A DNA stretch of 64,000 bases from Amphirosellinia nigrospora (Eukaryota; Ascomycota; Sordariomycetes; Xylariales; Xylariaceae). Location of the stretch: the NCBI GenBank assembly GCA_004123355.1, contig SCHM01000008.1, positions 739,501-803,500 on the forward strand, given 5' to 3'. The translations under genes were made by a program, and so were the position numbers. A model generated the notes under the pieces. The model was not told where the DNA came from and ran no database searches. It saw only the letters and a program-made list of their open reading frames with translations. Shown piece by piece: positions 3,463 through 11,560 of this stretch. Position 1 is the stretch's first letter. The number at the start of each line of letters is the position of its first letter.

Positions 3463-5405
3463 CTACGCCGGCCGCCTCAACCCGAAGGCCATAACACCCA
3501 TAACCCCGAAGATGAACTATCGCACAGAAAAAGTTAGACTTATTAGTTATCACATCGAGTTTGCTTTTTTTTTTTTCAATATTTCATACCGAAGACGCAA
3601 GAAAGGAATACCCCGCTGATGGGGTGTTCTCGGTCCGACCAAGCGACATAAGTGCCGACATGAGAGGTCCGCCAGTGATGTCTCCCAGCAAACTCAGGGA
3701 GTAGGCGACCCCGAAGGGCGCTGACAGCCTCTGGGATCTGGACGCGACTGACAAGAGGCTCTGCAGCGCGGGTTCGAGACCCTCGCAGAGACCGGCCGCA
3801 AACATTGCTGCCGTCTAATGATCAGCACATAGCAAGCTTGCTTGAGATAATCCACAACCCCGAAGAAGGAACATCACCGTACAAAAGATGAAAAATATGC
3901 CGGATCCTGTGCTCCACGCCGCGAGAAAACTTGCCGTGAGTAGCAATAGAGACGCTCGCACAATTAGGAGACTGATGCCTGCTGCAGCCATGCCTTTCCC
4001 CTTGAGGTAGTTACTCAGATACGGACCCAGACCCAAAGTAGCACATACCGCGCCCGAAGAAAGCGCGAACCGCACGACAGTCGTGTTTCGAAGATCCCAG
4101 TGGAATTTCTCGGCTAAGTATTGCGCCCCGAAGGCTTCGCTGGCCATCGCATTACTTTTCAGAAAGAAAGCCGCGTAGCAGAACGTGGGAAACGCATTCT
4201 TGTCGACATATGCATGGCCTTGCCTGATTATATGTTGTATAAGGTGAAGCCCGAAGCGATAATTCATAGTTGCGTCTGTCCCATCTCCGGGACTAGGCTG
4301 ATTATTTAGAGGCGGAGAGTAAACTGGTGAATTCCCCTCGCGGGAAGCGTCTAGATCGTCGTTGATTGCGTCTCTCAACAGTGGCTCCTCTGCAGCTGTC
4401 CGATCGGCGTCAGTTTCTTGAGGGCGAATTCGGGGGTTGTAGACAGCTTGTAGGAATGCCATGCAGCTGATTACGATGATGGCGGATACTAGCGAGGGTA
4501 TGAATAAGCCTTTGCTCATCAGGCCGGTGGCAATAGGCGAGGCGATGAGCTTTCCAGAGTGTGGCATCGCCGCCAAAAACATCAGAGATGCTGTTCTGTG
4601 ATTATGGCGGGTTAACAAGAGACTCCATATGGGTGATGAGGGAAACGTCTTTTTAGTAGCTAGACCTTCACCATGTCTGCCTACCTAAACGAGGGGCTCA
4701 CGCAGTCGGCGATCAGAGCAACGGTTATTGCAGCGAATACAAGTTGCCCACCACCGATGAGCAAGAATGCAGATGAGGCTAGAACGGCATTGACAGGGAT
4801 CACTTTGTTGAAATAACCTGGCCGTGGTGCGTCAGCAGAGTGCAGACTTCGGGAACGTCGACCTAATAACTTAGCAAGGGTAGAATCATTACATATCATC
4901 GTCAACCACAGCAGAGAACACAAATAACCGAGGCAGCAAAGAGTTAACACTACCCGGGGACCGAATCTGTCGGTCATCCAACTGTAGCCCATAATCGATA
5001 GAAGGCCTGTGAGCAACCGTAAGGTTGAATTAGTACAGCGAACCCTCACAACCGCCGCGGAAAGAAGTGAAAGAAGGCTAGCAAACCTGCCAATGCATCC
5101 AGCGACAGCTTCCATCCCACAATCGTGGAAATCTGTCCCTGTACAGAGGCCACATCGCACAGATGTTGGTTGTCACGGCCGTAAACAGAGGCGCTCAGTG
5201 TTTGGTTTAGCTCCGCTTTGCATGCAGCATACTCGACCATGCGCAAGGTAGGAACCTCCAATAGAAAATGAGAAAAGCGAAACAAGAGATATGAGAGGTA
5301 TAGAAACCCTAAAGAAGAGTTGCGCAGAGTCTGGACGTGACTGAGGAGAGTGTGCAACATTGGGAAGAAATTGAGTGAACCCGAGAAGCTAGGTACCCAC
5401 CCCAT
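3463..5405 (-). CDS. Major facilitator superfamily (MFS) transporter, five exons
   Basis: This is an integral membrane transporter of about 545 residues; the substrate cannot be told from sequence. The exons on the minus strand are 5405-5087, 5006-4685, 4595-3878, 3814-3590 and 3516-3463, summing to 1638 nt (546 codons). The introns (80, 89, 63 and 73 nt) are all GT-AG. Intron 3 contains the only apparent in-frame stop plus a CTGAT branch site. Intron 4 has GTATGA, ACTAATAAG and GATAG. The start is the ATG at 5405-5403, just ahead of the first membrane segment (about residues 32-55). The MFS motif A region, GYSWMTDRFGPR, lies at about 113-124. A hydrophilic Pro/Asp-rich central loop (about 255-310) separates the two six-helix halves. 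The last exon encodes FIFGVMGVMAFGLRR, completing helix 12. A first-pass reading that ends at the TGA at 3584-3586 would lose that helix. Distant MFS families with this N-terminal pattern are common in fungi and often broad or uncharacterised. Neighbours give no pathway. Confidence 0.85.
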
Positions 5406-5600
5406 GAGCTTTCTGGATTAAAGTTTAGTTGTGCTATACCCCTCATAAGGACGTGACTAAGCATATCGCTACGCAATAACTTGCCCCACTCTGATTAAAT
5501 ATATACTGAACCTGTGTGTGTTGGATTCTTGGCTTAAGAGGGCAGAAAATGTGATATGGATTGGATAGAGAACTAGCTAAATCTGCAGGTGGGCAAAGCC
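5406..5600 (-). promoter_or_regulatory. Upstream region of the MFS gene
   Basis: This is about 200 bp of normal composition between the MFS start codon and the start of the AT-rich block. Read on the minus strand it has a TATA-like GGGTATAGC about 40 nt before the ATG and a TTAGTCAC element further up. These are weak matches that could be chance. The main point is that the gene's promoter sits directly against RIP-affected DNA, so its expression may be influenced by heterochromatin spreading (inference). Confidence 0.25.
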
Positions 5601-5619
5601 CATATAGCCTATTTATTTA

Positions 5620-6349
5620 GGTAAGGTACGTAGGCCTTTAGCTATATAGCCATATTATTACGCTATATATTGCTAAGTGCTTAAAAAAATATAAATGCTT
5701 TTATTTGCTAATTAGTTTTTTAATAAGGCTAATTACGTTTAGTATGCTTAAGCAATAATATATAAATAGCTATAAAGTAAAAAATTATTTAAAGTTAAAT
5801 ATATAATTAGCTATTTTTTTTTATATTTGTTTATAAGCTTAATATATTATTTAATAAATTTAATATTTAATAATTATATTTTATTATTTTTAGCTTTAAT
5901 ATTTTAATTAAAAGAACTTTTATTTTATTTATTAATATAGCTTTAAAAATAATAAGTTATAAAAGCTAAAAATAATAAAGCTTTATTTAATTAATATAAA
6001 CTTTAACTATTAAACAACGGGGTTTATTTAATAGGATAATCGATTATAATAACTTAAATATTTATAATATTAGCTTTTACGGATTTATTTATATAGGCGC
6101 TAATTTATAAAAAATTTTATTTAGCTTAAACTTGCTAAGTTAAGTTTAATATTATTAAATATAGTTTTTTTTTTTTAGTTTTTAGCTTTAATGCTTTAAA
6201 AAAATAAACTTTATATTTTTATCGAGGATTTTAAATATATATTAATTTTTAGCTAGCTGCTTAATTTTGCTTAAGTTTTATAAAAGAGGTACGACTAAGT
6301 AAAAGGAAGGTTTTCTTGTCGATAAAAAATTTTTTTGTTTCTTATATCC
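5620..6349. other. AT-rich stretch without recognisable content
   Basis: This is the first 700 bp of the RIP block. It has many AGCTTTAA/TTAAAGCT-type words and a short less-mutated word at 6020-6040 (ACAACGGGGTTTATTT). No domain, terminal repeat or target-site duplication could be seen, so the left end of the transposon cluster is not defined. Confidence 0.6.
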
Positions 6350-6520
6350 TGTCACAGCCCCACTCTTTTGACCCACTTATCTAGGGCTGTGGCTGCACTG
6401 TGGCTGCCCACAGGGAATGTGTGGCAGTACTGGGCTAGGCGGTGTGAGGCGGTAGTACTGGGCGGTGTAGGGCACATACCTATAAATATTTATTACTTCT
6501 TGCAGGTTAATGTATTAATA
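6350..6520 (+). mobile_element. RIP-free island, possibly an LTR fragment
   Basis: About 160 bp of normal composition lie inside RIPped DNA. The island begins TGTCACAGCCCC, which fits an LTR-type TG start, and a TATAAATA box lies downstream at about 6481. CACAGCCC (6353-6360) pairs with GGGCTGTG (6384-6391) with a 23-nt loop. CTGTGGCTGC occurs twice in tandem (6387-6408), and AGTACTGGGC occurs twice (6426-6435 and 6454-6463). It ends near a run of T at about 6521-6540. No CA end or target-site duplication was found, so calling it an LTR is inference. It lies upstream of, and could belong to, the gypsy relic. Confidence 0.4.
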
Positions 6521-8739
6521 CTTTTTTTTTTTTTTTTTTTAAATAGAATATTAGCTTCTAATATAAAGTAAATTAGGTGTTTAAACTTTTTGCTTGTGTT
6601 ATATTTATTATAATATTTTATTTTGATTATATTATTATTTAAAAAAACAATAAATTTTTATAAAACAAAAAAAAACTAAATCGGTTAAGTTTAGCTAACT
6701 ATACGATAAAATATTTAAAAAAACCTTTAATAAAAAAATAATCGCTATAGCTAAGCGATCAGTATAGTTTAATATAAATTATATAACTAAAAAATATTCG
6801 TATAAAGTAAGCTTTATTAATAATAGTACGTTTAAGCACGATTTATTAAATAAGTTTTATTAATTTGCTTATTAAAAAGCAAATAAAATAATTAATTAAG
6901 AATATATTATAATTAAAAGCCGCGAAAAAAATAATAATAATTAATTAAACTTAGAACTTATATATTAGTATAATAAATATAATATTTTATTAAACAATAA
7001 AGCTATAAAATATTATAAACGATTTATTATTTTAATTATAAAAAAACAAATTTATACGTATAAACTATTTAAAATAAAAAAAAATATAAAAACAAAAATT
7101 AAAACGTTTGTTAAATATTTTATAATAAATAAAAAAGCTATAGTTTTTTTTATTACTATTATTATACTAAGATAAAAAATATAGCTTATTTTTAATTCGG
7201 TTATAACGGTTATTTAATTTGCTAAAATATTTAAAAAAAACTTTAATATTTTTTTTAACAAATATAAAGTTAAGTTTTTTTTATTTATTATAAATAATAA
7301 TATTACTAAAAATTTATATAATATTATAAAAATTATAAGCGTTATTATATAAAATATAAAATATTATTTCGATAAAATAGCTTGCTATTTTATTTAAGTC
7401 GAAAAAAAACTATAATTCGAACAAAGCTAAATTTTAGCGGATAAAGCTATAATATATAATGCTACTTTAAAAAAAATAACCAAACTATTTTGCGCTAAAA
7501 TATAAAAAAATAAAAAAACTATTAATATATTTAAAAATAAAATAATCCGATTAGCTGCTTTTATAAAATTTATAAAAGTTAAACTTATTATTAAATAATT
7601 TATAGCTGCTTTTATTATAATATATTTTAAATGTAAAAATATTCTAGTAATTATTTATATTAAAATAACCTATATAATAAAAACGTTTATAACTAATAAA
7701 AACTAATTTATTAAAGTTAAATATTTTTTTATTTTTATTTTTAATAAGTTTATAAATAATAAACTTAAAATTAAGTTTAAATATTAGTTTATACTTTTAA
7801 AAAAAAAGCTTAAAAAAAATACTAATTATTAATTAAGCAAAAAAAAACAAATTAACTATATTATTAATTATATAAAAAAAATTATATTTAAAAATTTAAT
7901 GCTATTTATTTAAAGCTATAATTTTAATAGCTTATTTATATTAATAATTTAAAATAAAATCTTAAAATATTTATATAATTAATATTATAATTTTAATAAA
8001 TATAAAAAAGCATATTTATAGTATAAATATTTTATAATAAAAGCTTTTAATAAGTTTTTTAAATTTAAAATTTAATTTATTCGATAAATTAGCTTAATAT
8101 AAATTAATAAAGCTAAATATAAACGTAATATATACGATATATTACTTTAACGTTTAAATAAGCTTTATATTATTAAATTTAATAACTTAATTATGTTTTT
8201 TTTAAAATATTATAATTATATTATTATATATAACTATTAATAATAAAAGAACTTTTTAAAACAATAATAAAATAAAAAAAAAAAAAATAAAATTATTAAT
8301 AAAATAAAAAAAAACGTTATAACTAGTATAATACTCCGGACTTACTTTTAAAATAATAGCTATTAAAAATTATACTTTAAATATTATAGTATTATTTAAA
8401 TAAAAACTATTAATAATAAATAAAAAGTATACGTTAAGCTTAATTTTAAATAAATAAAATTATTAATAATAAAAAGTTAATATTTTATTTATTATAAATA
8501 AAATTATTATAATAATATTTATTTTATAAAAGTTAACTAAAAGTAATTAAATATTATTTACGTTAATAAAATTGTTATAAAAGTTATAAAAAATATTTAT
8601 TTAAATAAGTAGCTAAAAAATAATATTTAAAATAATTAGTTTTTTTTTTTAAAATAACTAGAATATCGGCGTTAAAAATAAAAAAATATAAGAAAATTCT
8701 GTATAATTTTTTAAAAAAGCTTTTAAAAAAAAACTTTTT

Positions 8740-9110: not shown

Positions 9111-9710
9111 AATATTATTTAAAAAATATATTTATAAACGAAGCGGAAAACTTAATCCGGAATTCTAGCTATTAATAAAATATAAATTATTAAGAACAAA
9201 TAATAAAGTTTAAAAATAAACGTTGTTATAATAGTTGTTTAAATTAAAAATATTATATATAAAAAATTACTAATATTATTTTAAAACTATAGCTATTATT
9301 ATTAATTATTAAAAATAAACTTAAAAAAAATATTTTATAAACTAGTAAAACGGAATAAAAACTTATTATAAATATATTTTTAAAGGTTAAAAAACTAAAA
9401 AAATACGTAAAATTTATATTTAAAATAATAGTATAGTTACGTAATAAAATTATAAAATTAAAACAAAAAGCTAAAAAATTTTCGGAAAAGCTTTTATTAA
9501 AAGCTTATTATTTTAAAATATTTATTATAATTTTACGATTTTTATAAGCTAACTTTAATTTAAAAAGCGATTATATATAATAAAAAGTTAATTGTATAAT
9601 AAAAGCTTTAAATAAAAATAATTATAAACTATTTATATAAAGCTTATTTTATATAAAAATTGCGGATAAACTAATTAAAAAAGTTATTAAAAACAAATAT
9701 AGATTATTAA

Positions 9711-9935
9711 TATGGTGAAGTATGGGTAGAATTGGTATATTGAAAGAGATGGAGACGAAGTTTCTATAATCTCTGGGAATTCTACAGATCTAGATAATAT
9801 ATGTGTGCGTGTGTGTGTGTGTGTGGCGAAGCCACACGCACAGACCAGGCACTAGCCACGCAGTGGCTAGTGCGCGCCCGCCAGGGCGCTGTGTGCGCCT
9901 ACGCGCACACACCCCTTGCCCGCGCGTATCAATTA
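9711..9935. mobile_element. GC-rich RIP-free island with four consecutive hairpins (candidate solo LTR or structured element)
   Basis: About 220 bp of normal composition sit inside the gypsy relic. A (GT)n tract (about 9801-9825) leads into four perfect stem-loops. Stem 1 is GTGTGGC/GCCACAC with loop GAA (9821-9837). Stem 2 is GCACTAGCCAC/GTGGCTAGTGC with loop GCA (9849-9873). Stem 3 is GCGCCC/GGGCGC with loop GCCA (9874-9889). Stem 4 is TGTGTGCGC/GCGCACACA with loop CTAC (9890-9911). A weaker stem, AGAGAT...ATCTCT enclosing GAGAC-GAA-GTTTC, lies at about 9747-9775. The piece can be bounded as TG (9713) to CA (9931), 219 bp, which would suit a solo LTR, but I found no target-site duplication. 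It inserted after RIP or is too short or unique to be RIPped (inference). Confidence 0.65.
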
Positions 9936-10099
9936 TATATTATAAAAAAAAACGTTATTAGTTAATATAAATAAAAGCTAATATAAATTATTATTATTAG
10001 CGCGTTTATTTTTATAATAACTTTATATTAGGATAATATAATAGCGTATAGTATTATATTTTTATATAAAATCGAAAAAATAATTAATTAAAAAAAAAA

Positions 10100-11110
10100 A
10101 AAATTATTGCTTAAAAATAAAGCAGAATTACGTAAAAAAGCTTATCGCGAAATATTTAAACAATATTATAAATATTTAAACGTTTTTAATAAAGTAGTTT
10201 TAAATAAATTTTTTTTTTAGCGATTAAAAGTAGACTATAAAATTATTATTAAAAAAAAACTAAAATTTTTAAGCTATAATATATTATATAAAATATTATT
10301 AAATAAAACCGAAATATATCGGAAATATATATAAAAAAACTTATTTAAAAATTTTATAAAACTAATAAACGTACTATAAGCTATATTTATATTATTCGCT
10401 ATAAAAAACGATAAATCGTTATAATTTTATATAAATTATTAAAAATTAAACAGTATAATTTAAAAAAATTAATATTTTTTTTATTAATAAAAAAAACGTT
10501 ATTTTAATTAACTAAAGCTAAAATTTATACTAAAATTAATATATATTAAGCTTTTTATTATATTTATATTATTAAAAGTAATAAATAACTAATAGTTTTT
10601 TATACTTAATATAGTATTTATTAGTTTAAAATATTATTATTCGGACTTATTAACGGCCCGTTTATATTTTAGCGTTTTATTAATAATATATTAAAAGAAT
10701 ACTTAAATATTTTTTATATAGTATATATTAATAATATTTTAATTTATTTTAATAATAAACTAAAGCATAAAATATACGTAAATAAAATATTAACTTATTT
10801 TTAAAAAACCGGACTATAAACTAACCTAAAAAAATATAAATTTTTAGTTATTCGAACAAAATTCCTAAGCTTTATTATAAATACTATAAATATTAAAATT
10901 AACTAAAATAAAATTAAAATTATCTAATACTAATAACCGCTAATTAAAAACAATAAAGCTATACTAAAAAAAGTTCGATTTTTTTTTAAATTTTATAACT
11001 TTTATAAACGCTTTATTAAAAAATATAAATAAATCGCTAAGCTATTAAATAAATTAATTATAATAAAAACAAACTTAATATAAACAAAAAAATATTAATA
11101 GGTTTTTAAC
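10100..11110 (+). pseudogene. Gypsy reverse transcriptase remnant
   Basis: The best segment is 10,640-10,741. It reads FGLINGPFIF, a stop where Gln is expected, RFINNILKEYLNIFYIVY and then INNILIY. In Ty3/gypsy RT this is the FGLxNAPxTFQxxxNxxLxxxLDxFxxVYxDDILIYS block. The catalytic Asp-Asp at 10,730-10,735 reads AAT AAT (Asn-Asn), exactly what G-to-A RIP does to GAT GAT. Downstream follow KFLSFIINT (about 10,860-10,885) and FYNFYKRFI, matching the KFLGxxI and FANFYRRFI segments of the connection region. The domain is clearly inactive. Confidence 0.85.
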
Positions 11111-11169
11111 GCGTTAAAAAAAGCGCTAACTTTTACTTTTATTTTTTAATACTTTTTATATAAATTTAA

Positions 11170-11560
11170 AACCTAAATAAAAACTAATTTATTAAATAAT
11201 ATTGCTATAAATATATTATTATAATATAATAGGCCTAATAACTTTTAAAAACTAGTAGCTTTTTATTTAAAAACGCTATAAAATAAAAAATTAAATTATA
11301 ATATATTTAATAAAAAACTACTAATAATAATTAAAAGCTTTTTATATTAAAAAGCTAAGCTTATAAAACTTTAAAAATAAAAACTTTTTATTATAATTAT
11401 TAATTACGCTATATTAAAATACTTTAGTATAAAAAAAGTTTTAAGCTTAAAATAAACTAAATAAGCAAAACTAATTATATAATATAATTTTATAATTATT
11501 TATTAGCTAAGCTTAAAAAATATTATAGCTAATATCTTATTTTAACTTTATAAAAACATA
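11170..11560 (+). pseudogene. Gypsy RNase H remnant
   Basis: In one frame with several RIP stops the text follows the Ty3/gypsy RNase H plan. An INILL segment with the following stop stands for GVLSQ, and KLVAFYLKTL for PVAFxSKxL. LNYNIFNKKLLIII stands for CNYEIYDKELLAI, and INYAILKYFSIKKVLSLK for TDHxxLEYFxxxxxLSRRQ. ANILF with a following stop stands for ADALSR. Asp residues read as Asn and Gln as stops throughout. It follows the RT directly as expected. Confidence 0.75.

Follow-up and report, generated by a model that had tools for sequence, protein, structure and literature searches.

The four adjacent perfect hairpins at 9821–9911 of the window, by which we mean the whole 64-kb stretch of DNA analysed here, are part of a solo LTR of a fungal LTR retrotransposon, a reading to which we give a probability of about 0.95. 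Our results point to an ordinary solo LTR of a gypsy-like family degraded by RIP, whose U3 hairpins may be maintained by template switching more than by selection acting on RNA. The LTR (224 bp, minus strand) occupies 9708–9931, with its U3 end at 9931 and its U5 end at 9708; these limits follow from an exact 5-bp target-site duplication, ATTAT, with its first copy at 9703–9707 and its second at 9932–9936. The preliminary description had named as one option a solo LTR reaching from TG at 9713 to CA at 9931. Its identity as an LTR and the CA at 9930–9931 hold, while the true start lies at 9708, and the target duplication, pairs of this LTR around internal regions and a primer-binding site all bear the option out.

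The solo LTR and its family

On its 9708 side the window copy starts with TAATATGG and most lightly mutated copies with TGATATGG, and the terminal dinucleotide there is TA in the window copy and TG in most of the lightly mutated ones. The TG...CA ends belong to a short inverted repeat, TGATA...TATCA in most lightly mutated copies and TAATA...TATCA in the window copy. With 52.2% GC, the 224-bp LTR stands between 2-kb flanks of 10.4% and 12.7% GC. An earlier impression of a RIP-free island was right in that the piece is GC-rich between AT-rich flanks, and went too far in that the piece is lightly mutated: seven substitutions separate the window LTR from its nearest copy, and four of the seven are C>T or G>A. 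The AT-rich block begins within 5000–7000, where GC drops from about 0.5 to about 0.1, and fills the remaining window. The host of the LTR insertion is an older gypsy element, of which a reverse-transcriptase remnant with eight stops is found at 10457–10879 (plus strand); RIP-mutated gypsy reverse-transcriptase and downstream coding remnants of the element holding the LTR extend over 10125–11452 on the same strand. No sequence link was found between the remnant at 10457–10879 and the LTR's own family.

Copy number and flanking LTRs, on which the preliminary description had let the matter turn, speak for a dispersed family with seven pairs of LTRs around full-length elements. When used as a query against its own 48.1-Mb genome, the window LTR gave at least 41 matches at 40 places, and a second query added four further places; the family is present about forty times or more, and our alignment comprises 43 LTR copies, one 54-bp fragment being left out. 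The seven pairs, each on the same strand, flank internal regions of 7.3–7.8 kb with 8–15% GC, and the 5-bp duplications of these elements are exact in six of seven cases and off by one C/T in the seventh. Unpaired copies number 27 in total. With fixed ends, an exact 5-bp duplication was present in 15 of 18 unpaired copies versus 6 of 306 mismatched flank pairs, and 16 of 23 had a 5-bp duplication in an earlier scan, which chose the best among several candidate ends. At C5:2700200–2703300, two LTRs of the family are separated by about 1.8 kb and show the inner flanks typical of it, and this pair is probably an internally deleted element. Another LTR copy (C9:1040525–1041272) is devoid of hairpins A to C, apparently through a deletion between GT/GC-rich stretches.

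Element sense, primer and superfamily

Read in the minus sense, the lightly mutated copy at C4:9318851 runs ...TATCA-AA-TGGTGCCTCCAC; it is the only lightly mutated copy showing that flank, and the mutated elements agree with its inner flank once C>T and G>A are allowed. The primer-binding site, TGGTGCCTCCA, lies 2 nt from the LTR and is unmutated in one copy. Mature tRNAs bear a CCA tail at the 3' end. ARAGORN calls a tRNA-Thr gene (L079) whose 3' end, with this tail, pairs over 11 nt with TGGTGCCTCCAC; the end given by ARAGORN lies 3 nt beyond the one used for pairing. Pairing extends over 12 nt with a tRNA-Thr-like gene (L075) that was read by eye and not called by ARAGORN. A first tRNA pattern search yielded two chance matches only.

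The proteins encoded by the elements were approached through a 255-aa frame that lies downstream of the reverse transcriptase in the gypsy element L070 and that we take, from its motif, to be an integrase. This frame matches three of the seven elements, always in minus frames and about 1 kb inside the elements (best E 2.9e-5); at E up to 1 there were five hits, all from the 255-aa query and none (0 of 5) from reversed queries. Pfam matched no family to the frame, which is also absent among the listed matches of the rve search. The primer-binding site and the minus-frame protein matches together make the window minus strand the element sense. This sense, in turn, puts the hairpins at the U3 end, upstream of a putative TATA-like stretch at 9795–9802 (minus strand), which we take to be such by eye from its motif and which lies between the U3 hairpins and the remaining LTR. 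A plus-strand sense was considered and rejected: its inner flank, GGTGCCGGC, does not have the TGG start of a primer-binding site, and the protein hits are all in minus frames.

Genome searches with RVT_1, rve and RVT_2 placed none inside the seven elements among the matches listed, and a further search for the reverse transcriptase of the family recovered only hits with E 0.4 or worse, mixed with chance hits on both strands. Nor was a polypurine tract found within 100 nt ahead of the 3' LTR in any of the seven elements, where the longest purine run is 5–6 nt and none adjoins the LTR. Because the reverse transcriptase was not recovered and no polypurine tract was found, we call the family gypsy-like; from its sequence it would be primed by tRNA-Thr, and its placement in the Ty3/gypsy superfamily is tentative, the seven internal copies all being degraded by RIP. 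Its TG...CA ends, 5-bp duplication, LTR pairs and tRNA primer-binding site are those of Ty3/gypsy solo LTRs in RIP-active ascomycetes, from which it differs in its dense perfect U3 hairpins and in that no polypurine tract was seen. The same genome also contains, at C9:584000–602000 (L069 and L070), a gypsy element whose 1339-aa open frame lies between two 118-bp direct repeats, 99% identical to each other, and 13 of the 21 stop-free RVT_1 matches lie on the small contigs C9 and C11.

Origin and upkeep of the U3 hairpins

Hairpins A (9821–9837, 7 bp, loop GAA), B (9849–9873, 11 bp, loop GCA), C (9874–9889, 6 bp, loop GCCA) and D (9890–9911, 9 bp, loop CTAC) are where the preliminary description had put them and make up four of the six perfect stems in the 64 kb (6 bp or longer, GC of 50% or more, loop of 3–4 nt). 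The cluster is not due to chance: dinucleotide shuffles of 9821–9911 gave four such hairpins in 0 of 5000 cases and three in 1 of 5000. How unusual such hairpins are for an LTR was gauged on a single control repeat, the 118-bp direct repeat of the gypsy element on C9, which has one 6-bp perfect hairpin. Two further features of the same description were found again, namely a (GT)n tract of variable length ahead of the hairpins, which extends over about 9802–9825 and runs into hairpin A, and a weaker fifth stem, hairpin E (9751–9765), which is decayed in the window copy and forms a clean 6-bp stem, GGAGAC/GTCTCC, in most of the 17 lightly mutated copies. Folding of 9711–9935 gave z scores of −6.8 as RNA and −6.25 as DNA, and none of 200 shuffles did as well in either case.

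The account that we find most likely, though at somewhat under even odds, is that these near-perfect stems are kept largely by template switching through the hairpin during copying, perhaps beside a constraint from 3'-UTR structure or promoter sites. The clearest trace is in hairpin B, the loop of which is GCA in one subfamily and its reverse complement, TGC, in the sister subfamily. Reverse-complementing hairpin B of a GCA copy over its loop and 3' arm yields the exact 25 nt found in three of the four TGC copies; the predicted 25 nt include a stem correction, and the fourth TGC copy shows C>T changes. Applied to one GTA copy and to one GCG copy, this procedure gave no match. Loop inversion together with stem correction in one event is the pattern described for template-switch mutations that make or mend hairpins, in the part of that work available to us (PMC8794818), and suggests that the TGC form of hairpin B is the trace of one template switch. 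The cases described there are in RNA genes, whereas that of the window family is in an LTR, where reverse transcription is possible as well; the inversion could have come about in reverse transcription or in DNA replication. A branch sets apart each of the GCA and TGC groups (96/91 and 97/90); with the hairpin-B columns omitted, support is a weak 63/85 and 59/63 (TGC), and the joint group has 99/95. The drop lowers the odds of the bolder proposal that template switching during retrotransposon copying both generated and re-perfected the U3 hairpin array, which we regard as doubtful. Only this one loop inversion is convincing, and we infer its direction. Weaker hints are a hairpin A loop that reads CTC in C7:584817 and GAG in C11:36850, and a hairpin D loop that reads GTAG in C4:9318851 and CTAC in the window copy, the latter difference being explicable by single substitutions.

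A different explanation would be selection on the U3 hairpins as an RNA structure, placed close to the 3' end of the element's RNA and serving packaging, stability, priming or 3' processing. The stems are indeed kept in most copies. Hairpins E, A, B and C supplied the 30 pairs counted, hairpin D being excluded since the alignment shifts its arms; in the 17 lightly mutated copies, Watson-Crick pairing is seen in 458 of 491 ungapped cells, and all 17 copies outfold their shuffles on both strands (z −3.8 to −9.9; 60 shuffles each). The remaining cells, read on the plus strand, are 22 G-T, 7 C-A and 4 other, and a plus-strand G-T corresponds to a C.A mismatch in RNA of the element sense, which speaks against selection for pairing. 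Transversion cells are likewise more frequent in loops (8 of 216) than in stems (4 of 990), as selection on an RNA would have it, but six of the eight loop cells come from the one inversion. Furthermore, the stems are no better conserved than the neighbouring spacer (0 of 186) and LTR end (1 of 332), the other half of the LTR having 21 of 1244. Plant Sire elements are described as having inverted repeats where U3 begins, at its 5' end and near the polypurine tract (PMC3601003, as far as the available part goes); those repeats pair with sequence upstream of the polypurine tract, while the hairpins of the window family are self-contained.

The covariation analysis also argues against a selected RNA. 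In the 17 lightly mutated copies, only 1 of the 30 pairs, 9853/9869, changes both of its bases between Watson-Crick states (C-G and T-A, via T-G). We rejected this pair as covariation: the T-A state, which makes the 11-bp stem of the window copy perfect, occurs in 2 of the 17 copies and lies in a CpA context. Across all 43 copies, 13 of the 30 pairs are two-sided, and of the 12 two-sided pairs besides 9853/9869, 11 change from G-C to A-T, the direction of RIP. In the 26 mutated copies, partners co-change no more than non-partners (mean r 0.103 for 16 testable pairs versus 0.105 for 713 pairs), and 2499 of 5000 random sets were as high as the partner mean. The two-sided stem changes are RIP acting on both arms, and covariation beyond RIP was not found in the stems across the 43 copies, with hairpin D not counted. 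An idea that the hairpin half is poor in CpA proved wrong, the U3 end having 17 CpA/TpG per 94 nt and the remainder 8 per 92 nt. Altogether, we regard selection on an RNA structure as unlikely. According to the preliminary description, the piece would be just a solo LTR if full-length elements carried it as ordinary LTR and its stems varied without compensation, and this is in substance what we find: full elements carry the LTR, and the stems vary without covariation beyond that caused by RIP.

The palindromes might instead be candidate dyad DNA-binding sites upstream of the LTR promoter. In agreement with this, the hairpins are upstream of the TATA-like stretch in the element sense, as judged by eye, and hairpin D forms a perfect 20-bp palindrome centred on GTAC in 15 of the 43 copies and in 10 of the 17 lightly mutated ones; binding sites, however, need not be adjacent hairpins with short loops, and we think this explanation improbable. 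It is very improbable that the piece is a structured non-coding RNA gene, as had been proposed earlier on: the folding z score of −6.8 would suit such a gene, but the piece is a dispersed repeat with flanking target duplications, its stems have no covariation beyond RIP, and no Rfam match came near its gathering score (the best E-value, 0.0044, came with 20.9 bits where the cut-off is 65; the top score was 23.6 bits where it is 90). A GC-cluster-like or double-hairpin element mobile on its own, the remaining earlier proposal, has next to no chance and we take it as refuted in this genome: although GC-rich hairpins within AT-rich DNA recall the adjacent hairpins of fungal mitochondrial double-hairpin elements, which are potentially mobile alone (PMC10085805, in part), the block 9845–9935, a query made up of hairpins B–D and the LTR end with hairpin A outside it, matches 34 places, and 34 of 34 are inside copies of the LTR.

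Insertion history and the meaning of LTR hairpins

A tRNA-Thr-primed gypsy-like LTR retrotransposon inserted into the older, RIP-mutated gypsy element and duplicated 5 bp, as the duplication, the single LTR and the LTR pairs elsewhere show. In our model, recombination between its two LTRs would then have left one. Because LTRs throughout this family end in these hairpins on the U3 side, the hairpins came in with the element when it was copied and did not originate at 9821–9911. The solo LTR may have kept its GC by being too short for RIP, by which the full-length copies would have been destroyed. In Neurospora, RIP requires repeats of more than about 400 bp, and a 275-bp repeat was hit by RIP in another fungus, according to the part of the source available (PMC2621366); a 220-bp solo LTR would mostly escape.

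A conserved hairpin at the edge of a Pezizomycotina LTR is described in the available part of a study of GalEa Copia elements as the Conserved Hairpin Site (PMC5445492); it lies just after the 5' LTR and replaces the primer-binding site, while in the window family the hairpins are inside U3 and the primer-binding site is present. No report of a hairpin array in the U3 of a fungal gypsy LTR was found in the open-access literature, as far as the available parts of these sources go.

The most distinctive structure of the window is thus settled as the LTR of a retrotransposon. In an LTR, RIP and perhaps template switching can give rise to perfect stems and to what look like two-sided changes. If the template-switching proposal is true, LTR hairpins would record switching by reverse transcriptase or during replication and would look like the product of compensatory evolution although no selection on RNA was at work. 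With its subfamilies and its solo copies that escaped most RIP, the family would offer a test system for the origin of LTR hairpins.
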